Assembly: GCA_913060615.1 (NCBI GenBank)
Contig: CAJXUL010000003.1
Location: 1-52,609, forward strand
Direction: 5' to 3'
Source of the DNA: an uncultured Gammaproteobacteria bacterium
GTDB lineage: Bacteria > Pseudomonadota > Gammaproteobacteria > Pseudomonadales > Azotimanducaceae
DNA: 52,609 bases
The position numbers and the translations under genes were made by a program. A model generated the notes under the pieces. The model was not told the origin of the DNA. It worked only from the letters and a program-made list of their open reading frames with translations, and did no database searches. Shown here piece by piece: positions 12,368 to 47,858 of this stretch (its first letter is position 1; the number at the start of each line of letters is the position of its first letter).

Positions 12368-14620
12368 TTAGTTCAATGTTATGGCTAAGGTCCGATAACC
12401 AGCCGATTCTATTGCCGCTTTAACCGGCCCAGTGCTGTCCGGGCATAGGGCGATCATGGATCCACCACCACCACCACCGGTGAGCTTTGCACCCACTGCG
12501 CCATTTTGCCGCGCAACGTGAATCATTTCTTCTAGCTCAGGCGTGGAAAGCTGCAATGCATTGAGATAGCCGTGACACAAATTCATCAGTTCGCCTAACT
12601 CATTCAGTTGCCCGCTTTTGACTGCGTCGCTTGCGGACATAGTGAGATGCCCGATCTGATCAAAAATGGTTTCGTAACGCCCCGGATATTGTTGCCACGA
12701 GGCTCTTACCCTGGCTACTGTGTCCGCGGTTAGGCTCTCTTTACCGGTCATGCCAATAACTAATTCTAGCGGTTGGCCAAGTTTTAAAGTGCTGAATAAC
12801 GGTTGCTCGTCGCGGCGCTGGTAATATAGTGGCGAGCCATAAGTGGCCACAGTGTTGTCCACACCGGAAGGTGTGCCGTGAGCGGCTTTTTCGCACTCAA
12901 AGGCCAATTCATTAATGCGCCCATCTTTGAGATCTAGTTTATAAGCGTGGTCGATGGCACGGATAATCGCCACAGCCAATGCCGAAGATCCACCTAGTCC
13001 CATTGCTCTGGGGATATGTGGAAAAACCTCGATGGTCATATTTTCTTTATTGAGGCCAAGCTGCTCTAGCAGCTGTGCGATAATGCCGGTAAAGCCGGGG
13101 TTAGTGACGCGCACTTTTTGCTCAACACCCCAGCGCGGAATGACTACATTGATACCGTCGCCACCTTTGCGAATGGCGGCTTCCACAGCCAAGGGAATTG
13201 GTAGGGCGATAGCCGGTCTGCCATAAACTACGGCGTGTTCGCCAAGCAAAATGATTTTGCCGCAAGCGGCTTGGCGCTCGGCAACGTCAGGTTGGACGAT
13301 TTTGCGCGCTAGATTTTTGGCTATCTCTTGGGCTTTCCAGACTTTAATTTCGCCCGATTCAATAAGGCTTTCTACCACGGTTTCAAAGTGTTCGTCTGAA
13401 ACGCCTGCAGAACTAGCCACGCTGCGGGCATGCAAATTCATATGGTTTTGCTGTATGCCGTCGGTGGAAAGTGAGCGTAGGGCGGCAAAGTTTTGTGCCA
13501 AGCCAATTGCCGCCATAATACCTGCCAGTTCCGAGGCGTTGGGTGAGCCCAGCAGTCTATGGTTGATTCTAACGCTAGGGTTGGTCTCTAACGACCCGCC
13601 TACAGTGCCTACTTTCATTGGGATAGCTATTTCGCCAACCAAATAGCCGGGCTCGTCTTTGTGCCAAACCGTTAACGCTTTATAACGCCCGCTTGCTGCT
13701 GCATAAGCATGGGCAGCAGCTTCAATGGCGCGCCAGTCGTTACCCGTGGCAATAGCCACAGCGTCTACGCCGTTCATAATGCCTTTGTTATGGGTTGCTG
13801 CACGGTAGGGGTCGGCCAGTGCTAAGTCGTTAGCGAGGACTATGCCGTCTCTGACTTCTTCGCCCGTGTAGCCTTTACCTTCCAAATTTTGGATAGGTAT
13901 GCGCACCTTCGCTCGAGCCACTGCGCGATCTGTAAGGTTAGATAAAATGCGTAAGAAAACTTTACCGCCTGTAAGGGTTTCAGCTAGTGAGGCAACGCCC
14001 TCGCACATGGTGTTAACCAGGTTTGCGCCCATGGCGTCTCGGGTATCTACTAGCAGGTGCATGACCACCATTAGGCGACCGTCGTGTTCTGCCTTGTAGT
14101 CAAATACTTCTATGTCTAGTGCGCCGCCGCCTCGCGCCACCATTTTTGGGTGCAAGCTATTGGCTAGCGCCAGTATTTCTTCTTTGTTTTCTAGTAATAC
14201 AGATTTAGCCGCTTCTGGATCGCCATCTATGACTACCTGTACTTGGCCAATGAGTATGGGAGTTACTTCCTCGGCAATAAACCCACCGCCCAGGCGTGCT
14301 AGGCGTGCGGCGCCGGATAGGCCTGCAACGATAGAAGGCTCTTCTACTACTAGCGGAATAACGTAGTCGCGGTTGTTAATGAGGAAGTTTAGGGCTACGC
14401 CCATGGGCAAACCAAAAACACCGATGACATTTTCTATCATCTTATCGGCCACGTTAAGCTGCACCTGGTGGCTGCCGGTCGTAAGTTGCTGCACATCCTC
14501 TTGGGAAAGCAGGCCGCGCTGATGTAGCGCTGCAATGCGTTGATTGATGTTTAAGCGGAAAAAATTTGGGATCCGAGAAGATCCCTGTTGGTCTTGTTCA
14601 GTCTTTGACTGTGATGCCAT
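12368..14620 (-). CDS. fused class II 3-hydroxy-3-methylglutaryl-CoA reductase - mevalonate kinase
   Basis: N-terminal half: HMGR (FRLNINQRIAALHQRGLLS, EEPSIVAGLSGAARLARLGGGF, KGIMNGVDAVAIATGNDWRAIEA, GTVGGSLETNPS). C-terminal half: GHMP kinase (CGKIILLGEHAVVYGRPAIALPI, PRAMGLGGSSALAVAIIRA, GTPSGVDNTVATYG, GAKLTGGGGGGSMIAL). Single uninterrupted 750-aa ORF. Confidence 0.92.
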   Translation of the reverse strand: MASQSKTEQDQQGSSRIPNFFRLNINQRIAALHQRGLLSQEDVQQLTTGSHQVQLNVADKMIENVIGVFGLPMGVALNFLINNRDYVIPLVVEEPSIVAGLSGAARLARLGGGFIAEEVTPILIGQVQVVIDGDPEAAKSVLLENKEEILALANSLHPKMVARGGGALDIEVFDYKAEHDGRLMVVMHLLVDTRDAMGANLVNTMCEGVASLAETLTGGKVFLRILSNLTDRAVARAKVRIPIQNLEGKGYTGEEVRDGIVLANDLALADPYRAATHNKGIMNGVDAVAIATGNDWRAIEAAAHAYAAASGRYKALTVWHKDEPGYLVGEIAIPMKVGTVGGSLETNPSVRINHRLLGSPNASELAGIMAAIGLAQNFAALRSLSTDGIQQNHMNLHARSVASSAGVSDEHFETVVESLIESGEIKVWKAQEIAKNLARKIVQPDVAERQAACGKIILLGEHAVVYGRPAIALPIPLAVEAAIRKGGDGINVVIPRWGVEQKVRVTNPGFTGIIAQLLEQLGLNKENMTIEVFPHIPRAMGLGGSSALAVAIIRAIDHAYKLDLKDGRINELAFECEKAAHGTPSGVDNTVATYGSPLYYQRRDEQPLFSTLKLGQPLELVIGMTGKESLTADTVARVRASWQQYPGRYETIFDQIGHLTMSASDAVKSGQLNELGELMNLCHGYLNALQLSTPELEEMIHVARQNGAVGAKLTGGGGGGSMIALCPDSTGPVKAAIESAGYRTLAITLN

Positions 14621-15554
14621 GTTTGGCCATCTCCAAATCTAATAACAAAAAATTTTGATCCGATACCCTACTGCGAAATTTTTCTAGTGCATCTTTATCT
14701 TGGCTCAGCGCTATGCCGATATCGCCGCCACCTGCGCCACAAGGTTTATAGGTGAGGCCGTGTGATGCCGCCAGTTTAACCAAGCTGAGGTGCTCTGTGG
14801 TAAAAATATTCAGCTTTGCGCTTTGATCTAGAGCAAAAAGTGCTTTTTGATACTGCTTGAGCAAATCATTGCTGGTGGGTTGCTCGCACAACAAGCTACT
14901 CAGCGCAGATAGATCATCAAGCAGGCCAGAATCATCTGTTTGCCGCCAAGTATCAAAACTTGCTATGTGGTCTGTGGTTTTGGCACTTTTACCGGTCCAG
15001 ACCAGCTGCCAATGCAGATCTTCTGGCCATTGGAAGGGTTGGGCGACGCCGTTTTGATACGTTATCACGCCACCGAACCAAGATGCTGCAACGTCTAAGC
15101 CGCTACCTTTGCCGCTTTGCCAGTTGCGATGAATTTGCTGTGCTTCGGCCAAAGACGGTTCTTTGTCCAATAAATGACAGAGCCCCGCATAGGTGGCATT
15201 ACATACCGCGGCTGAGGAACCTAAACCCAATTTTTGGCCAGCAGAAAAAAAATCAGAGCTGTCGGTATGCAGGTGCATGCCAGCGCATAGCTCGTTGAGG
15301 TGTTGTATACCCCAATGCTGCAATACAGCAGCGGTAAATCCGGTGGTAGGGGCAGTGGGTAATGTTTCGCCTTCTTCATTGACGCTGACGCTGGGGCTGT
15401 CAAATCCTGCGCTGCTGAAGTGCCATGTTTGGTCGCTGCGCGTTTCTATGCTCACTTGAGCCGTGGCGTTCACTGCCATGATAGCGGCGGGCGCGCCAGT
15501 CAACACGGCATACTCACCCCAAAGAACCGCTTTGCCCGGTGCGGTAAACTTCAC
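14598..15554 (-). CDS. phosphomevalonate kinase-like GHMP kinase
   Basis: VKFTAPGKAVLWGEYAVLTGAPA, KLGLGSSAAVCNATYAGL, GKGSGLDVAASWFGG, YKPCGAGGGDIGIAL; GTG start overlapping mvaD stop as GTGA. Confidence 0.85.
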   Translation of the reverse strand: MKFTAPGKAVLWGEYAVLTGAPAAIMAVNATAQVSIETRSDQTWHFSSAGFDSPSVSVNEEGETLPTAPTTGFTAAVLQHWGIQHLNELCAGMHLHTDSSDFFSAGQKLGLGSSAAVCNATYAGLCHLLDKEPSLAEAQQIHRNWQSGKGSGLDVAASWFGGVITYQNGVAQPFQWPEDLHWQLVWTGKSAKTTDHIASFDTWRQTDDSGLLDDLSALSSLLCEQPTSNDLLKQYQKALFALDQSAKLNIFTTEHLSLVKLAASHGLTYKPCGAGGGDIGIALSQDKDALEKFRSRVSDQNFLLLDLEMAKHGITVKD

Positions 15555-16498
15555 TGGTCGATAATCTGTGCGCCTTCGCCCAGTCCACAGTCGATAATTT
15601 CTAACACGCCTGGTACTTGCGCCAATGCTGCGCTGACGGCTGGACGACTTTCCGCTGTGCACACGGCCTTAATTTGTGGCCCTGCATCTACAGTAAAAAA
15701 AACTTGATGGCCTTGGTCACGCAGGGCTCTTACGCAATCCATGCAAGCAATACTTGCGGGTGTCCAGTAGCTCAAGGTTGGGTTACTGGTCAGCATCAAG
15801 CTGTGCATTTTTAGACAGCTCAGTTCTGCAACTTGGGCCAGTTGAGTGAAATCGCGCAAACTAATTGCCTGGGCGGCCGAGCTATAATCTTCGGCTGCAC
15901 CTCGCAACCAAGCATTGTAAAAAGGTGAGGTTTGCTTGGATCGCTGCATACCTTGAGTAGAGTTCACAGCTTTTGCTGCTCTGCTGGTCACAGCAACGAC
16001 GACTTCTAAGGGCCAGTGACTGCTGGGCGCCAGGCGCATGGCTTCCCATTGAGGCGGTACTAACGCCACAAATCCTCCGTGAATTGAACGAGCTGCGCTT
16101 GCAGACCCTTGGCGCGCCCAATTTGAACGCATCTCCTCATTTAGACCCAGGTCGCAATGTGCGTTAACGGCTGTGATGAGGGCCGCAAAGCCAGATGCAG
16201 AAGAGGCAAGACCCGCACTGGTTGGAAAGTTGTTGTCGCTATTGATGATCAGGCTTGGTACTTCGAATTCACTGCGAAGCGTCTGCAACCAGCGTTCTAT
16301 CTTCGCGTCCTCAATCTGCTCACCGTTAAGGTGAAACGCGTCCTTTTTGCCTTCCTTTATCTTCGTGGTGGTGGTCAGATTTGACAGGGTAATAGACAGG
16401 TTGGGCGTAGCGGGCAGGTTGCCGGGCTTGCTTTGTTTACCCCAGTATTTCACTAGGGCAATGTTTGGGTGCGCTTGGGCTGTAGTTGTATTTTGCAT
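15551..16498 (-). CDS. mvaD: diphosphomevalonate decarboxylase
   Basis: AHPNIALVKYWGKQSKPGNLPATPNLSITLSNL, NNFPTSAGLASSASGFAAL, STQGMQRSKQTSPFYNAW, TVDAGPQIKA. Confidence 0.93.
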   Translation of the reverse strand: MQNTTTAQAHPNIALVKYWGKQSKPGNLPATPNLSITLSNLTTTTKIKEGKKDAFHLNGEQIEDAKIERWLQTLRSEFEVPSLIINSDNNFPTSAGLASSASGFAALITAVNAHCDLGLNEEMRSNWARQGSASAARSIHGGFVALVPPQWEAMRLAPSSHWPLEVVVAVTSRAAKAVNSTQGMQRSKQTSPFYNAWLRGAAEDYSSAAQAISLRDFTQLAQVAELSCLKMHSLMLTSNPTLSYWTPASIACMDCVRALRDQGHQVFFTVDAGPQIKAVCTAESRPAVSAALAQVPGVLEIIDCGLGEGAQIIDQ

Positions 16499-23639: not shown

Positions 23640-24125
23640 CTAAGTCTTTTTTGCTCTCTGAGCATTAATAAACTCAATCAAAGTCAGCGTTTCTGCTGCG
23701 TCCATACGCCCTACGGGTGAGTTACTGTAAGTGGATGCCATGACCTTGCCGCTCTTGGTGAGGATGAATTCGCTTGGCTGAATAAAGTCTCTACCCTCAT
23801 CCCACCACGCGCCTAGGCTGTCGCCTTGTGCTCGTGTGACCCCATGGGCTACTGGAAAGCCCAGTGGTTGTGCTACCTCACTGGTTTTCTCTAACGAGTC
23901 TACGGCGGCGGCAATCATCGTTACCCCTTGTGCTGCAAGCGCTTCACGGCGCTCTTCATAGCCGGCTAACAGTCGGCGGCAGTAAGGTCACCAATGGCCG
24001 CGATAAAACAGCACTACGGTAAATGGACTGGTGAGATCAGCAGGGAGGTTTATTTCACTGCCGTCTACGCTTGAGAGGGTAATGTCTGGAAACATATCCC
24101 CCGGTTGAAGTTTTTCGACCATCAT
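23640..24125 (-). CDS. candidate selenoprotein: peroxiredoxin-like (AhpC/TSA, thioredoxin-fold) protein with in-frame UGA at 23988-23990 (Sec46)
   Basis: conceptual translation MMVEKLQPGDMFPDITLSSVDGSEINLPADLTSPFTVVLFYRGHW[UGA]PYCRRLLAGYEERREALAAQGVTMIAAAVDSLEKTSEVAQPLGFPVAHGVTRAQGDSLGAWWDEGRDFIQPSEFILTKSGKVMASTYSNSPVGRMDAAETLTLIEFINAQRAKKT; one frame throughout, TGA occupies the peroxidatic/CxxC first Cys. Confidence 0.82.
23961..23977 (-). promoter_or_regulatory. putative bacterial SECIS hairpin downstream of UGA
   Basis: hand-folded GCCG-A-CU[GUU]AG-C-CGGC: 4 bp, A-C mismatch, 2 bp, GUU loop; the apical G is 18 nt after the UGA. Confidence 0.45.
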
Positions 24126-24211
24126 TTTTCCTTTTTATTTTTTGCGAATCTTTCCTAAACAAAGCTCATTAAACTCATGACGCTAAGTCAAAAAAACCTT
24201 TTTCTTGGACT

Positions 24212-33785: not shown

Positions 33786-36266
33786 TTAGCTAGATCTGTT
33801 GTTAGCCACAGCCTTGGCTGGCGCAGGATTTCTAATAAGCTGCGCTGACGGCGTTTTACGCTCGTATTTCTCGGCCGGAGTATTGATGATCTCCAACAAT
33901 TCCCCTTGCCTGTCACCCGCCTTAATGCGCTCCCCGCTTACAGTGCCGTAAACTGTGGAGCGCTGTTGCGGGTCTCTATTGAGATTACGCACTATGGTCT
34001 GCATTTGCCGGGGCGAGGTTTCTTGACCATGCTGAGTACCAGCGGCGCGGCTGATAGATTCGTTCATCAAGGTGCCGCCTAGGTCGTTACAACCAGCATT
34101 AAGGCAAGCCTCTATGCCTTTATGGCCCATCTTCACCCAGCTCGCCTGAATGTTATCAATTTGGCCGTGCAGCGTTAGACGTGCAACCGAGTGCAGTAAA
34201 ACAGCTTCGCGGAAGGTTGGGCCTTTGCGCGCTTTGCCCTTCAAGTACATTGGCGCTTCCATATGAATGAAGGGCAGTGGTACGAACTCTGTGAAACCAC
34301 CGGTTTTTACTTGTTGAGCGCGTATCCGCAATAGGTGCCTGGCGAGGTGCTCGTGCTTCTCAACATGGCCGTACATTACGGTTGCGGTAGTTTTGAAGCC
34401 GACTTCATGAGCCGCTTCCATAACATCTAACCATTGTTGGGTATTGATCTTATCTGCACAAATTACCGCACGAACTTCGTCATCGAGAATTTCTGCAGCT
34501 GTGCCGGGTAGTGTACTGAGCCCTGCATCTTTGAGTTGGGTTAGATAGGTCTTAAGATCCATCTCAAGTGTTGCCGCACCCTGCCACACTTCTAGCGGTG
34601 AGAACGCATGTATATGCATTTCTGGCGCCGCCGCTTTGACAGTTTTAATAATGTGGGTGTAGGTGTCGCCAGTGTACTCAGGGTGTATGCCGCCCTGCAT
34701 ACACACCTCGGTTGCGCCTCTGTCCCAAGCCTCGACTGTGCGACGGGTAATTTCTTCGTCGGAAAGGTCATAAGGTCGACCTCTTAGGTTCTCTGACAAC
34801 TTACCCTTTGAGAACGCACAGAATTGGCATTTGAAATAACAAATATTGGTGTAATTGATATTTCGGTTAACGACAAAGCTGACGCTGTTACCGTTGGTGT
34901 TGCGGCGTAGTTCATCGGCAGCCTGCACTACCGCGCTGAAGTCATCGCCGCGTGCTTGAAACAAACGAACTACCTCTGCTTCAGTCAGTTCTCTGCCTGT
35001 TTTAGCGTCTTCGATAATAGAAGCTAAGTCGGCGGATATGCGCTTAACCGGATTAATGATGGCGCTCATGATTTCTTCAGGGGGTTGAGTGTCTACGTCT
35101 CCCGGAGACCACTCATCAATGCGCGGCATGCCTTCGGTGTCGATCATTTCCAACACACGTTCATGCAAGTCTGGGTGAACCCAGCGCTGAATATCTTGGG
35201 CATAAGCTGGGTAAATTGTTAACCGTTCGGTGAGATACTTGCCAGCTGACGCAGTTTCGCGGGCGAGCTCTTCAACCTGTGGCCAAGGGGCTTCAGGATT
35301 AACAAAGTCAGGAGTCACTGGCGACACGCCGCCCCAGTCGTTGATGCCAGCGTGAACAATTTGCGGTAGCACGCCAGGGCTTAAGTTGGGTGGCGCTTGG
35401 ATACTCATAGTGGCACCGAACAAAATGCGCGCAACGGCAATAGTCCACAACAGTTCGCCAAGATCTGGCTCTGGCGCGTTGACCATTTTGGTATCTTCCT
35501 TGGCACGGAAGTTCTGAATAATGATTTCTTGTACGTGGCCGTGGCGCAAGTGAATGTCACGTATCGCCAGCAAACTTTCAACGCGCTCAAGGCGGGTTTC
35601 ACCGATGCCAATTAATATGCCCGTGGTGAAAGGCACGCCTGCAATGCCAGCGTTTTCTAGAGTTTGTAGGCGAACGGCGGGAATTTTGTCTGGCGAGCCA
35701 TAGTGGGGCATGCCTTTTTCGCACAGCCGTTCACTGACAGATTCCAGCATGATACCCATAGACGGCGAAACCGAATGGAGTTTGGCCAATTCTTCAGGCT
35801 CTAAATTGCCGGGGTTTAGGTGGGGTAGTAGCCCTGTTTCTTTAAACACGGCCTCTGCCGCAGCAAACAAGTATTCAGTGGTCGATGCGTAGCCCATTTC
35901 GGCCAGCGCATCTCTAGCTGCTCGATAGCGCAGCTCAGGTTTTTCTCCAAGGGTGAAAAGCGCTTCCTTGCAGCCCATGGCTTGACCATGTCGTGCCACC
36001 TCCAAAACCTCTTCAATGCTCATGTAGGGGGCTTTAACCTTGCGCGGCACTTGAGCGAAGGTGCAGTAGTGACAGACGTCTCTGCACAGGTGGGTGAGCG
36101 GTATGAAGACTTTACGTGAATAGGTCACAACATTTCTGAAGCCCTGGTCGCGCATAAGTGATGCCGCATCAGCCAGCGCACGGGTGTCTGTGTTGTCGGC
36201 AAGTGTTAAGGCTTCTTCGTTGCTTGGGCTGATTCCAGCTACTGCATTTTCGAGTAGGGACTTCAT
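33786..36266 (-). CDS. fbiC: bifunctional FO synthase (CofG-CofH fusion), coenzyme F420 biosynthesis
   Basis: two radical SAM sites: CRDVCHYCTF and CYFKCQFCAFSKG; GILIGIGETRLERVESLLAIRDIH; CMQGGIHPEYTGDTY. Confidence 0.95.
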   Translation of the reverse strand: MKSLLENAVAGISPSNEEALTLADNTDTRALADAASLMRDQGFRNVVTYSRKVFIPLTHLCRDVCHYCTFAQVPRKVKAPYMSIEEVLEVARHGQAMGCKEALFTLGEKPELRYRAARDALAEMGYASTTEYLFAAAEAVFKETGLLPHLNPGNLEPEELAKLHSVSPSMGIMLESVSERLCEKGMPHYGSPDKIPAVRLQTLENAGIAGVPFTTGILIGIGETRLERVESLLAIRDIHLRHGHVQEIIIQNFRAKEDTKMVNAPEPDLGELLWTIAVARILFGATMSIQAPPNLSPGVLPQIVHAGINDWGGVSPVTPDFVNPEAPWPQVEELARETASAGKYLTERLTIYPAYAQDIQRWVHPDLHERVLEMIDTEGMPRIDEWSPGDVDTQPPEEIMSAIINPVKRISADLASIIEDAKTGRELTEAEVVRLFQARGDDFSAVVQAADELRRNTNGNSVSFVVNRNINYTNICYFKCQFCAFSKGKLSENLRGRPYDLSDEEITRRTVEAWDRGATEVCMQGGIHPEYTGDTYTHIIKTVKAAAPEMHIHAFSPLEVWQGAATLEMDLKTYLTQLKDAGLSTLPGTAAEILDDEVRAVICADKINTQQWLDVMEAAHEVGFKTTATVMYGHVEKHEHLARHLLRIRAQQVKTGGFTEFVPLPFIHMEAPMYLKGKARKGPTFREAVLLHSVARLTLHGQIDNIQASWVKMGHKGIEACLNAGCNDLGGTLMNESISRAAGTQHGQETSPRQMQTIVRNLNRDPQQRSTVYGTVSGERIKAGDRQGELLEIINTPAEKYERKTPSAQLIRNPAPAKAVANNRSS

Positions 36267-36934
36267 AAATTATCCTGGGCCAAATGGGTGTTGGTACTAA
36301 GCCGGTGGGCGATACCAGATCTATTTAAGTAAATGGCAGTTTGGCTGCGCGGTTGTTGTTGGTAGAGCGCCATCAAATCTTTTGGCGTATCAACATCAAG
36401 GGCAAAGCAACTGGCAGGCACAATTTTGGGTGTGATGCCTGCAGCAAAGGCAGCATCTACGTGGGGTTTGAAACTTTTGCCGTCGAAAATGTACGGCACG
36501 CTGAGCGGCGGTGAACAAATTAGTCCATTAGTGCCGACATTTTCAGAGTCTGGCAGCACGGTAACTTGATTGTGCGAGCGCACCAATTGATCCACTTCAT
36601 CAGTGGTTATGGCTGGCACATCGGCAGGCACAACAAAAATGCCTTTAGCGGAGAAGTGAGAAACTAGGTATTGGGCTGCCTGGGTTAAAGCGCCAGCTAA
36701 ATCCACATTGGGACTCTCTGCGAAGCGTTCTGTGGCAAATGTCTCTGCAAGGGCGTCGGCTTCTCTAGCGCGAGAAACAATGAGCACGCCGGTTAGGGTC
36801 TCGCTGTGAGACAGACACGTCAGCACGTCACGTGCCATAGCCAACATGAGTGATCTTCGTTCGTCTTCGTTTAAGACATTAGCCAGACGTTGTTTCGCCC
36901 GAGCGAAAGTCTTGATGGGAACGATAGCCCACAT
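36263..36934 (-). CDS. cofC: 2-phospho-L-lactate / 3-phosphoglycerate guanylyltransferase
   Basis: MWAIVPIKTFARAKQRLANVLNEDERR; start chosen for AGGAG spacing; ATGA overlap with fbiC. Confidence 0.9.
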   Translation of the reverse strand: MWAIVPIKTFARAKQRLANVLNEDERRSLMLAMARDVLTCLSHSETLTGVLIVSRAREADALAETFATERFAESPNVDLAGALTQAAQYLVSHFSAKGIFVVPADVPAITTDEVDQLVRSHNQVTVLPDSENVGTNGLICSPPLSVPYIFDGKSFKPHVDAAFAAGITPKIVPASCFALDVDTPKDLMALYQQQPRSQTAIYLNRSGIAHRLSTNTHLAQDNL

Positions 36935-36997
36935 CAGCATCTCCTGTTTTGTTAATAACACGGTATCGACCCCTATTCGCACCCCTTTATTGTGCAA

Positions 36998-37140
36998 CTG
37001 AGTTGTCGTAACCGTTCTGGACTATTGCAGTGGCTCGTAGTGCTACGAGTATCAGCAAAGCTGATCATTACCGGGTTAGCCGAATGCAGCCGTTACTTCA
37101 TATGCCTATGAGGTAAGCGACTCAGCAAAAAAGACCGGTA
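36998..37140 (-). promoter_or_regulatory. structured cofD-cofC intergenic region with three stem-loops
   Basis: TACTTCATA/TATGAGGTA (37094-37115), ATCAGC-AAA-GCTGAT (37051-37065), CTCGTAG-TG-CTACGAG (37034-37049). Confidence 0.6.
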
Positions 37141-38070
37141 TTATTTAGACTGCAGTGTGTCCAAAAACCTTATGCATTCGCGGGCTAAATCCACGCGATC
37201 TTCTAAAGTTACCATGACCGACTTAGTGGCGATAGCTGGTATTGCTAATTCCCCTATGCTCTGGGCATCGGTTTCATCCAAGACGAAACCGTCTATCAGT
37301 CCTTCATACTGGTCAGCAATTGCCTTAGCCGTGGTTGGTATTTGTAGTTCTTGCATCATTTTTGCGGCGGGCCCTTTCAGTGCCAGCCCGGCAACAATTG
37401 GCGATACCGCGATAATGGGTAGGTGCGCTATGGCCTGCCGCATGCCCGGTACTTGAAGAATGGGCGCAACCGAGACGAACGGATTAGACGGGCAAATGAT
37501 GACGCCGTCGCAGTCTTGTAACCAAGCTTCTATAGCGGGGTTGATCTTCGCCTGCTCAATGCCTTCAAATCTGAATCCGGTGACAGCAGGTTTGCATTGT
37601 TCGCGCACAAAATAGTGTTGGAAGGCTAACTCGCCGTCAGTGGTATTCACCATGGTGCGAATAGGGTCATCGCTTATGGGCGTCATGGAGTGCTTGATGC
37701 CCATGCGCGCGGCAATTTCCGCGGTAGCTTGGGTCAGAGTTTTATTCTCTTTGAGCAATTGGGCGCGGCGCATATGTAGGGCAAGGTCTTTATCGCCGAG
37801 GCGAAACCATGCTTCTCCGCCCAAACCACCGAGTGTTTCAATAAACTGCCAAGTCTCGCCTGAGCGTCCCCAACCTAATTCTTGATTGTTTTCGCCAGAC
37901 AAAGCGTAGGTCAGGCTGTCTATGTCTGGAGAAATATGTAGGCCAAGGTGTTCAAAGTCGTCACCCACATTGACGGCGAACATGACTTCTTCGGGGCTGA
38001 GAATCTTCGACAAGCCCAAAGCTAATTTGGCGCCGCCTACGCCGCCGGTCAGCGCAAGAATTTTCGCCAT
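37141..38070 (-). CDS. cofD: 2-phospho-L-lactate transferase (CofD/FbiA)
   Basis: ILALTGGVGGAKLALGLSKIL, NVGDDFEHLGLHISPDIDSLTYALSG, ICPSNPFVSVAPILQVPG. Confidence 0.95.
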   Translation of the reverse strand: MAKILALTGGVGGAKLALGLSKILSPEEVMFAVNVGDDFEHLGLHISPDIDSLTYALSGENNQELGWGRSGETWQFIETLGGLGGEAWFRLGDKDLALHMRRAQLLKENKTLTQATAEIAARMGIKHSMTPISDDPIRTMVNTTDGELAFQHYFVREQCKPAVTGFRFEGIEQAKINPAIEAWLQDCDGVIICPSNPFVSVAPILQVPGMRQAIAHLPIIAVSPIVAGLALKGPAAKMMQELQIPTTAKAIADQYEGLIDGFVLDETDAQSIGELAIPAIATKSVMVTLEDRVDLARECIRFLDTLQSK

Positions 38071-38855
38071 TAGCGGAACATGTCTTCAGCAAGGGGACGA
38101 TTAATGTCCTGAGCTGTTTGAACGGGGTCACCGTCGTTGGTAAGAGTAGTGGCCTTGGGTAAACCGCGCAAAATCACCACAGGCAATTTTTCTGTAGTTT
38201 CACCCATCATAAGAGTGGCGCTGCTTGCCAGGGCGTCGGCTCTATTGACCAAGGTGGCTTGCAGTGAGCGACCGTAAATGTCTTCGCCACCACGATAGTC
38301 ATCAAGCACGTTGATGCCGGCACAGCCAATAGCGCTGCCAATGGTGCCCATACGCCATGCGCGATTATGCGAATCGGTAATAACTACGCCAATTTGCACG
38401 CCAAATCGTTGTTGTAGCTGCTCGCGTATAAGTGCTGCGGATTGGTCCGGATTTTTCGGCAGTAATAACGCCTGTTCGCCGTTGCTGTGATCAACATTAG
38501 ACTGATCAATGCCGGCGTGTGCGCCCACAATTCCCAGCTTATGTCTTACCACGAGGACGTTGGGCTTGTGCCGCATGACTTCGCTAGATTCATTCAGAAT
38601 CAGCTGCACCATACGGGGATCTTTATTTGTAGCCGCCGCCAGTTCAATGGCCTCTGGCCCAGCTTCAATGCTGGCGAGAGCAACCGTTTGGCCTTCTGCT
38701 TTAGAAATAATTTTTTGTGCAAGGCAAAGGACATCGCCGTCTTCAAGCGTGAGAGCTTGAGCCTTTAGGGTACTAGAGATAATCTCGCTGAGATCATCTC
38801 CAGATTCCACCATAGGAATGCCCGGCACACCTATGACGGAGAAGCGCAGAGCCAT
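38070..38855 (-). CDS. cofE: coenzyme F420-0:L-glutamate ligase
   Basis: GIPMVESGDDLSEII, DVLCLAQKIISKAEGQ, ITDSHNRAWRMGTIGSAIGCAGINVLDDYRGGEDIYGR; TAATG overlap with cofD; no C-terminal nitroreductase domain. Confidence 0.95.
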   Translation of the reverse strand: MALRFSVIGVPGIPMVESGDDLSEIISSTLKAQALTLEDGDVLCLAQKIISKAEGQTVALASIEAGPEAIELAAATNKDPRMVQLILNESSEVMRHKPNVLVVRHKLGIVGAHAGIDQSNVDHSNGEQALLLPKNPDQSAALIREQLQQRFGVQIGVVITDSHNRAWRMGTIGSAIGCAGINVLDDYRGGEDIYGRSLQATLVNRADALASSATLMMGETTEKLPVVILRGLPKATTLTNDGDPVQTAQDINRPLAEDMFR

Positions 38856-38858
38856 GGA

Positions 38859-39521
38859 TTAGTGCTCTTGACCGATGATCTTGATGCCAGAATGGGACAA
38901 AATGCCACCGCGGTTGATCTGGATCAGGATTGAAGTTAACGCTTCTGCTGCGGCTGCATTGGCAATCGGTCCTGCGTGCCAGCCGGTCATGCCCGCTTCG
39001 GTGATCATTTCAATGACCTTGGCGCGTGAATCTTTGCTGTTACCTGAGACTAAAACGTCGCACTCAATCACGACGTCTTGCTGTAGCAAGTGTGCTGCGA
39101 TGTTTTGGAACGCGCTGACCACGTGTACTTCTTCACCAAGGAAATCTTGTGCACGCTTACCTGCGCTGCCCTCTTCAGGAAGCTGTACGGTGCCAACTTT
39201 GGGCGGTACCAATGGCACAGTCACGTCAATAAGGATTTTGCCCTTCAGGTGATCCTTCAGTGCGTCTAGTGTAGAAATTTGGTGTGCGGCAGGTACAGTT
39301 AAAACCACAATGTCGCCAGCTGCTGCTGCATCGCCATTTTCCATAGCTTGGGCAGGTGTGTCTGGGCTGATGGCTTGCAATGCCTCTACGGCTGCCTGAG
39401 CTTTATCTAAAGTTCTTGAGCCAATAACGATGTTGTAACCGGCTTTCGACCAACGAATTGCCAAGCCTGTACCGAGGTCACCTGTACCGCCAAGAATGGC
39501 GACTGTTTCTTTTGTAGACAT
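38859..39521 (-). CDS. npdG: F420H2:NADP+ oxidoreductase family
   Basis: VAILGGTGDLGTGLAIRWSKAGYNIVIGSRTLDKAQ, VVSAFQNIAAHLLQ, DVLVSGNSKDSRAKVIEM. Confidence 0.92.
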   Translation of the reverse strand: MSTKETVAILGGTGDLGTGLAIRWSKAGYNIVIGSRTLDKAQAAVEALQAISPDTPAQAMENGDAAAAGDIVVLTVPAAHQISTLDALKDHLKGKILIDVTVPLVPPKVGTVQLPEEGSAGKRAQDFLGEEVHVVSAFQNIAAHLLQQDVVIECDVLVSGNSKDSRAKVIEMITEAGMTGWHAGPIANAAAAEALTSILIQINRGGILSHSGIKIIGQEH

Positions 39522-39729
39522 TGAATTACCAGATCTATGAATTAGGGCGCAAGAGTATGCCGCTAATCACTAGGTAATGAAAAGTCCGTATTTGTAACCC
39601 TTGATTGTACAAAGGCGTGTTGCTGGTCATAAACGGCGTTTTGGCCTTTAGAATGTGTGGGCGTGACATTCCACTTGTATTAGCAGCAGGCTTGGGCCAG
39701 CCTTACTTTTTTCAATTTTGGAGAGGGTG

Positions 39730-40635
39730 ATGCGGATAGGTGCAATGATTGGTGCGGATGGCACTAAAAGTTCAATAGATGAAGTTATTCAGTTGGGCAA
39801 GGACATGGAGCAAGCGGGTCTTGACCACGTTTGGTTGGCGAATATTTTTTCTTATGATGCCATATCTACCCTTGGACTGATTGCGCGAGAAACTTCAACT
39901 ATTCGCGTTGGCACAGCCGTTACTCCCACCTACCCACGACATCCGGGCGCGCTGGCGCAACAAGCAATGACCACGGCTGCGGCGTCAAAGGGCCGCTTTA
40001 CTTTGGGCATTGGTTTATCGCACAAGGTGGTGATCGAAAATATGTATGGCATGAGCTATGACAAGCCTGCCAAGCATATGAAGGAATATCTAAATGTACT
40101 GATGCCGCTCATTCGTGGTGAAACTGTCAATTACAATGGAGATGAGTTTCAGGTTAATGGTCTGACTTTAGATATTCCAGGCGGCAATGATTTACCCGTA
40201 GTTGTTGCAGCTCTAGGCCCGCTCATGATTAAGCTTGCAGCGCAAATGACTGATGGCACCAATACGTGGATGGTGGGCCCCAAGACCATGGAAGAACATA
40301 TTATCCCCAGTTTTCGTGATGCAGGTAAGCCAGACCCAGCCATTGTTGCGGGCATGCCTATTGTGTTGACCACTAACGTAGACCAGGCCAAAGCTGTGAT
40401 TGCGGAAAACTTAACCGTTTATGGTCAGCTGCCCAGCTATCGCGCCATGCTCGACCGCGAAGGTGCTGCCGGTCCCGCTGATATTGCAATTGTTGGTGAT
40501 GAAAATCAGTTGCGTGGCCAGATTAAGCGCTTTGAAGATTTGGGTGTGACCGACTTCAACGCGGCCATTATGGATACTGAAGAGGGCGCTTATGCGCGTA
40601 CGTTAGAATTCCTCGGCAGTTTGAAAGGTAATTAG
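39730..40635 (+). CDS. LLM class F420-dependent oxidoreductase
   Basis: MRIGAMIGADGTKSSIDEVIQLGKDMEQAGLDHVWLANIFSYD; divergent from the F420 biosynthesis operon; GGAGAGGGTG upstream. Confidence 0.9.
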   Translation: MRIGAMIGADGTKSSIDEVIQLGKDMEQAGLDHVWLANIFSYDAISTLGLIARETSTIRVGTAVTPTYPRHPGALAQQAMTTAAASKGRFTLGIGLSHKVVIENMYGMSYDKPAKHMKEYLNVLMPLIRGETVNYNGDEFQVNGLTLDIPGGNDLPVVVAALGPLMIKLAAQMTDGTNTWMVGPKTMEEHIIPSFRDAGKPDPAIVAGMPIVLTTNVDQAKAVIAENLTVYGQLPSYRAMLDREGAAGPADIAIVGDENQLRGQIKRFEDLGVTDFNAAIMDTEEGAYARTLEFLGSLKGN

Positions 40636-46922: not shown

Positions 46923-47858
46923 TTAGTTTAAAGCGTTTATTGCTGGCAGCAGTTGCTCTACTAGCATTTTGGTCTGCTCGATCATATCCGCAGTGCCAGA
47001 AGCTATGGGTCGCAGAATAAACTTATGCGCGCCACTTGCGTGAAAGTCTTCAACCATCGCCATCATTTCATCGACACCGCCAACGGCACTGTAAGCGGCT
47101 GGGTCCTTGCCTAAACGTTTTGCTAAGACTTCATTGTACTTTTGCACCATCGGGTCGCTTTGCTTGCCGAAGCGAAAGCCGAAGCCAGCGCCAAAGTGAT
47201 CGTCGTCTATTTTTCGCCCCAGCTCCCCGGCACTTATTTTGATCGCCGCAATGACAGGCTTTATTTCCGCTGCGGATTCTATTCCAGCCTGCCAGCCGGT
47301 GCCCCAGCGCGCAGTTCTCGCAATGGCTTGCGGCGCAGAACCACCAACCCAAAGAGGCATGGGCGACTGTACCGGCTTTGGCGAGATGGTTGCGTCAATC
47401 AATTGGTAGTAATCACCTTGAAAGTTGACATTGTCCTCGCGCCATAGTGCGGACATAATTTGTAAGCTTTCTTCAGTGCGCTTGCCGCGTCCTTTGGTAT
47501 CTCGGCCGGTGGCGATAAAGTCTCTAGATAGCGCACTCCCTACGCCGAATGCGGGCAGCAGACGTCCTCCAGACAATACATCAATGGTTGCGCAGGCTTT
47601 GGCCGTAAGCACAGGGTCTCTTAGTCCCATGCTGGCTACGTTCATGCCAAATTTGAGTTTTTTGCTGCCGCCGGCTAACGCTGCCATCACACTCATAACT
47701 TCTAGGTTGGGTGCTTTCTCAATAATGCGATCACTTTGCCAGATCGAATCAATGCCACCGTTGTCGCAAAGGTTCACCCACTCCCAAAAGCCCTTACCAT
47801 CATCAAATGTGAAATTTGCTATTCCGATTCCTGCGCCGACGGTCATACATTTCCCCAA
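46923..47858 (-). CDS. LLM class flavin/F420-dependent oxidoreductase
   Basis: CDNGGIDSIWQSDRII, GRLLPAFGVGSALSRDF, PLWVGGSAPQAIARTARWGTGW; an internal ATG (MTVGAG) at about 47846 is an alternative start. Confidence 0.9.
   Translation of the reverse strand: MGKCMTVGAGIGIANFTFDDGKGFWEWVNLCDNGGIDSIWQSDRIIEKAPNLEVMSVMAALAGGSKKLKFGMNVASMGLRDPVLTAKACATIDVLSGGRLLPAFGVGSALSRDFIATGRDTKGRGKRTEESLQIMSALWREDNVNFQGDYYQLIDATISPKPVQSPMPLWVGGSAPQAIARTARWGTGWQAGIESAAEIKPVIAAIKISAGELGRKIDDDHFGAGFGFRFGKQSDPMVQKYNEVLAKRLGKDPAAYSAVGGVDEMMAMVEDFHASGAHKFILRPIASGTADMIEQTKMLVEQLLPAINALN

Follow-up and report, generated by a model that had tools for sequence, protein, structure and literature searches.

We identified a selenoprotein gene in a stretch of DNA of 52,609 nucleotides from a marine gammaproteobacterium (the window), at positions 23640..24125 of the minus strand, where the gene is otherwise annotated as broken and stop-based annotation yields fragments only. 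The gene is very probably functional, with its in-frame UGA at codon 46 decoded as selenocysteine (Sec) through SelB and a two-hairpin bSECIS just downstream. Our computations give a conserved UGA, a complete Sec machinery, constrained hairpins and a predicted fold, and from these we infer Sec insertion, binding of either hairpin by SelB, the catalytic role and the substrate. The encoded protein belongs to the Prx-like (AhpC/TSA) UxxC selenoproteins, an established class of which the window gene is a new member.

The frame is opened by tandem ATGs at 24125 and 24122 and closed by TAG at 23640-23642, and read-through translation (24125-23640, minus strand) gives a protein of 161 aa from the first ATG, or 160 aa from the second, with a single internal TGA at 23990-23988. 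Translation thereby confirmed the first-pass annotation, which had described a 161-aa AhpC/TSA frame starting at the tandem ATGs and broken only by this codon. It had also remarked that the ORF track shows only the 92-aa fragment 23640-23918, and that fragment is indeed all of the gene that the mechanical ORF list contains. The Pfam AhpC-TSA domain (PF00578) matches residues 8-129 (E 2.9e-18, 66.4 bits versus a cut-off of 26), so the domain spans the UGA. Because a probable ribosome binding site AAGGA (24129..24133, minus strand), placed suitably for such a role, lies 6 nt before ATG 24122, and because an ATG at that position recurs in the nearest homologues inspected, ATG 24122 appears a likelier start than ATG 24125. 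No sigma-70-like promoter or minus-strand terminator stood out around the gene.

The TGA (23988..23990, minus strand) specifies residue 46, predicted to be Sec, and opens the redox motif U-P-Y-C (U46 and C49; 23979..23990, minus strand). In the homologue alignment position 46 is invariant as Sec or Cys, and position 49 as Cys. A search of the order recovered the gene with one TGA in G180 (99%), G201 (93%), G040 (68%), G281 (62%), G256 (55%) and G030 (53%); other genomes yielded uninterrupted relatives, Cys-type or more distant. Of the 89 places returned by a search of the family, 87 have the in-frame TGA at this codon, the exceptions being a MAG copy in which the frame is lost after W-UGA-P (L217) and an unrelated weak match (L218). 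Outside the family search, G256, G030 and a public assembly (L024) also have UGA at this codon. About 90 relatives retain it, with protein identities as low as about 53%. When the DNA of every place was extracted and read, the motif Y-R-G-[HYF]-W-UGA-P-[YF]-C was present in 91/91 UGA rows. Judged from these alignments, a TGA that recurs at one codon throughout the alignable close relatives is far beyond chance. More distantly, TGC or TGT occupies the codon in homologues from Chloroflexi, one actinobacterium and a wastewater gammaproteobacterium (L025), and the expectation that homologues would have Cys or UGA at position 46 was borne out. A search for the wider class at an E-value of 1e-30 found none of its members in the 368 remaining sampled genomes, which places the UGA form mainly in the window's family and in a few others; a pattern scan of viral contigs gave no match.

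The first-pass annotation had described the flanking protein as conserved on both sides, and selection is indeed purifying on both sides of the UGA, with dN after the UGA well below dS wherever dS could be estimated. It had also counted further disruptions in close relatives as an argument against recoding; there are none, save the one frame break in the single MAG mentioned above. These results bear directly on a pseudogene reading, according to which a nonsense mutation struck a Cys-type gene that now has no product beyond residue 45. Such a mutation would account for the interrupting stop and for the 92-aa fragment returned by standard ORF calling, but it is at odds with the recurrence of this UGA across some 90 relatives of one family and in three genomes outside it, with purifying selection downstream, with codon-level constraint found only after the UGA, and with the full Sec machinery in the genome. 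We give it a very slight probability and consider it in practice already refuted. An error of sequencing or assembly, TGC or TGT being read as TGA, could be suspected in an assembly made of fragmented MAG-like contigs with adapter remnants at their ends. The same TGA, however, stands in independent public assemblies from different studies (L021, 99% identity; L022 and L023, 93%; L024, 57%), which already refute this reading and leave it a negligible chance.

As for decoding as Sec, the first-pass annotation had held that absence of selA, selB, selC and selD would refute it. All were found in the window's genome (G000; 3.16 Mb, 309 contigs), selB in two contig-end pieces. The tRNA-Sec scores 69 bits, over the Rfam cut-off, and is also called by ARAGORN with anticodon tca; SelA scores 524.5 bits and SelD 259.5 bits. 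The N and C parts of SelB lie on separate contigs, at the ends of C256 and C282 (L221, L222). Since the transposase adapter CTGTCTCTTATACACATCT is present at both of these ends, the split is an assembly break, and the assembly lacks a central part that comparison with G040 puts at about 115 aa. In G040, a genome of the same genus, selA and selB are intact and adjoin each other, and the tRNA-Sec lies about 3 kb further on. More broadly, a tRNA-Sec of more than 62 bits is present in 7/7 UGA-bearing genomes examined; that of the L024 genome scores 78.5 bits. As a separate observation, SelD (G000:C144, L223) is the Cys form (RCGGCGAK) and makes up the C-terminal part of a 747-residue open frame, of which the N-terminal part, by reading, resembles an NADH-dehydrogenase-like flavoprotein.

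The frame would be equally open with TGA as any residue, and the UGA could in principle be read as another amino acid through a change of code or near-cognate read-through. Against this, a tRNA-Sec with the matching anticodon is present, homologues have Cys, neither Trp nor Arg, at the site, the nearest relatives L022 and L023 also use TGA as the stop that closes the same gene, and, of the codons tested, this UGA alone has SECIS-like constraint after it. We therefore hold this alternative to be highly improbable.

The evidence for a recoding signal comes from comparison among relatives. Folding of the window sequence by itself, over 45-70 nt after the UGA, gave no energy signal (z 0.28, -0.94, 0.48), and a comparative approach was used instead. 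For 88 distinct UGA genes, the identity of synonymous codons was measured column by column against the level predicted by codon usage elsewhere in the gene. The excess averages 0.03 upstream of the UGA, 0.23 over codons +1 to +17 (23937..23987, minus strand; the putative bSECIS region) and 0.01 beyond. Among the stretches tested, this one alone is more conserved at synonymous sites than expected; in the rest of the gene such sites are close to random. Inside it, a scan for hairpins with six-position stems and a G near the loop start, with no preset positions and with synonymous randomisation as null, peaks at two places only, with loops that start 16-17 nt (55/86 sequences, null 11) and 39-40 nt (56/86, null 15) after the UGA.

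At the first of these places, hairpin 1 (GCCGACUGUUAGCCGGC, 23961..23977, minus strand) has in the window the loop UGUUA (23971-23967), which starts 16 nt after the UGA, on a stem with 5/6 pairs and an A.C mismatch (core -4.8 kcal/mol). Its loop type is xGUUx, with UGUUA or AGUUG in most members. Hairpin 2 (GAGCGCCGUGAAGCGCUU, 23937..23954, minus strand; -7.7 kcal/mol) has the loop CGUGAA (23948-23943), of the type CGUGNN, beginning 39 nt from the UGA. Both hairpins occur in the window gene. The 90 UGA rows divide into 30 with hairpin 1 alone, 31 with hairpin 2 alone and 29 with the two together; no row lacks both. At least one hairpin is thus present in 88/88 distinct UGA genes, whereas synonymous randomisation would leave about 63 of the 88 without either; what counted as a good hairpin was decided after viewing the sequences, which are related, and the null was held to the same thresholds. 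Neither hairpin occurs in 8/8 Cys rows. The SECIS-like hairpins that had been anticipated after the UGA are thus in place and under selection. A further candidate, a hairpin with the 13-nt loop GACUGUUA, was dropped because its G.C-rich arms can pair instead around a loop of 5 nt or 3 nt, a form with far stronger enrichment over the null.

The published bSECIS model specifies a 3-9 nt loop whose first two positions include G, a stem of 4-16 bp, a distance of 16-37 nt after the UGA and an energy of at most -7.5 kcal/mol (PMC13188914). Hairpin 1 agrees with the model in loop (UGUUA), stem (5/6 pairs) and spacing (16 nt), but its core energy is above the model value; hairpin 2 is stable enough, but its loop, at 39 nt, is 2 nt outside the published range. 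Both share with the canonical bSECIS of the E. coli fdhF type (PMC13188914, Fig. 2) a hairpin just after the UGA and a small loop with G in the first two places, then U. The window's family differs from the canonical element in having two hairpins, with the GU loop at 16-17 nt, at 39-40 nt or at both.

We give about even odds to a tandem SECIS in which the GU loop, placed at the near site, the far site or both, would have moved several times, with the hairpin 1 stem kept, perhaps as a spacer, and with the RNA fixing the peptide ERRxAF in users of hairpin 2. In members with hairpin 2 only, the hairpin 1 stem persists in 27/31 cases (null 7.5), and most of its loops are without a G near the start. 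The peptide ERRxAF, which lies under hairpin 2, is coded almost invariantly as CGC-CGT-GNN-GCG, and the codons beyond are free. Because the peptide is near-invariant in members with hairpin 2 and free in members without it, the RNA appears to constrain the protein here. On a quick tree with many forks unresolved, parsimony requires at least 10 changes of hairpin 1 and at least 5 of hairpin 2; when the two hairpins were set against each other in an independent-pairs test on this tree, the pairs were too few for significance. At the level of sequence, the alternating GU loop is well supported as a pattern of selection, and use of either hairpin by SelB would be the mechanism behind it.

A simpler reading is that hairpin 1 alone is the SECIS and that hairpin 2 is something separate, for example a constraint on the ERRxAF peptide or another RNA element. 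Hairpin 1 does fit the published spacing, hairpin 2 lies beyond it, and in the window's genome two further candidate UGA genes have a hairpin with an xGUUx-type loop a short way past their UGA. Yet the 31 UGA genes that fall short for hairpin 1, mostly through a loop without a G near its start, all have hairpin 2 with GU, and no UGA gene lacks both. A peptide constraint sits poorly with codons that are almost invariant under hairpin 2 and free beyond it, and with a peptide that is not kept in hairpin-1-only members. We regard the single-hairpin reading as possible, though rather unlikely.

Under the tandem arrangement, SelB-GTP-Sec-tRNA-Sec would be held near the ribosome by the bSECIS just 3' of the UGA, and the ribosome would decode UGA codon 46 as Sec. 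Hairpin 1 (xGUUx, 16 nt) and hairpin 2 (CGUGNN, 39 nt) may each present GU to SelB, the GU loop being carried by one, the other or both depending on the family member. In a limited literature search, we found no description of a bSECIS with a GU loop that alternates between two tandem hairpins, one of them beyond the accepted distance. If true, the tandem SECIS would extend the accepted distance from UGA to loop and provide a natural series of SECIS relocation. The selenoprotein is common to 88 of 201 sampled genomes of one gammaproteobacterial family. With about 90 natural variants in which the SECIS hairpin is moved, doubled, or lost together with Sec, the working distance of SelB from the UGA and its choice of hairpin become directly testable.

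The loss is illustrated by the wastewater Cys member (L025; JAHEHN010000001.1, 3001-3450), which is nested in the UGA group on a quick tree of few columns, where it forms a long branch. Both hairpins are lost in it, and its genome, of which the completeness is not established, has no tRNA-Sec over the cut-off (best 43.9 bits). This pattern suggests that Sec was replaced by Cys and the Sec system lost. Cys members also occur alongside tRNA-Sec, in Chloroflexi genomes, and are therefore not confined to genomes without Sec.

The AlphaFold model of the protein (mean pLDDT 93.8, pTM 0.89) has a peroxiredoxin/thioredoxin fold, with TM-scores of 0.75-0.84 by query length against solved peroxiredoxins. 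In the profile alignment to 6q5v and 5xbq, U46 aligns with the Thr of TxxC, and the peroxidatic Cys corresponds to C49. The protein thus has the fold of peroxiredoxins, but where peroxiredoxins sensu stricto carry Thr or Ser, three residues before the peroxidatic Cys, it has U46. The first-pass annotation had placed U46 at the catalytic Cys. This stands insofar as U46 aligns with the Cys of homologues, but U46 opens a thioredoxin-like UxxC and is not the peroxiredoxin catalytic Cys, and we dropped U46 as the peroxidatic position on the basis of this alignment.

Given that U46 takes the Thr place of TxxC, UxxC chemistry of the thioredoxin type is likelier than that of classical peroxiredoxins, and the product is probably a cytosolic Sec-dependent thiol:disulfide oxidoreductase or peroxidase, the former being likelier. 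As a soluble thioredoxin-fold protein with a U-P-Y-C pair, it would use Sec as the nucleophile, probably attacking disulfides or peroxides, and C49 would resolve the selenenyl-sulfide or selenenic form. That it is a true selenium peroxiredoxin, acting as a peroxidase, is suggested by PF00578, by the peroxiredoxin fold and by an invariant G-R aligned to the G-R of peroxiredoxins; we nevertheless find this doubtful, since TxxC is replaced as described and UxxC is a thioredoxin-type pair, as noted for the Sargasso Sea Prx-like selenoproteins (PMC1088965). The neighbouring genes, named by reading as aminotransferase-like, sugar-isomerase-like and desaturase-like, are conserved only within the genus and so indicate no partner for the thiol:disulfide oxidoreductase that we favour.

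Reports of Prx-like UxxC selenoproteins with PF00578 date from 2005 and 2008 (PMC1088965, PMC2398784), and a 2026 review (PMC13188914) lists them among those predicted with high confidence, in line with the first-pass view that the class was already known. The Sargasso Sea 'Prx-like protein' and the GOS 'Prx-like 1' share with the window protein the Pfam AhpC-TSA domain and a UxxC at the same kind of place (PMC1088965, PMC2398784, PMC13188914), as well as marine bacterial abundance, Cys homologues and a downstream bSECIS, a likeness drawn from their published descriptions. As far as we know, two alternative hairpin positions have not been reported for them, whereas they are present in the window's family. 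The selenocysteine peroxiredoxins with TxxU have the same fold, PF00578 and Sec in the active-site loop, but their Sec is at the last place of the motif and that of the window protein at the first. Similarity to SelL-related redox proteins (NF040769) is weak (residues 12-83, 24.7 bits, far below the curated cut-off of 120 bits), and the window motif differs in being UxxC.

The window's genome holds further selenoprotein candidates. One (L019, G000:C40) is an AhpC/TSA gene with an in-frame UGA at locus 1573-1575, in S-A-D-W-U-P-F-C, after which comes a strong hairpin whose loop contains GUU. Another (L020, G000:C66) is a 371-aa frame with an AhpC/TSA part and a UGA at locus 1537-1539, in F-Y-R-G-F-W-U-P-P-C, followed by a hairpin with the loop AGUUA; the related genomes G281, G221 and G134 also have TGA-containing matches, in frames of about 400 aa.

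Elsewhere in the window, which opens with a Nextera-type transposase adapter (1-48), ORFs 12-386 and 34-438 run into the adapter (peptides CLLYTSDAADE and MYKRQ) and are partly artefact. Positions 33786-39521 (minus strand) hold a coenzyme F420 biosynthesis cluster, here in a gammaproteobacterium, with a CofG/CofH-like double radical-SAM protein, CofC, CofD, an F420 ligase and an F420-dependent NADP oxidoreductase; by reading only, luciferase-like F420-type oxidoreductases lie at 39718-40635 and 46923-47858. Mevalonate pathway genes occupy 12368-16498 (minus strand), where a single 750-aa protein, next to diphosphomevalonate decarboxylase, joins HMG-CoA reductase with a GHMP kinase that is probably mevalonate kinase.
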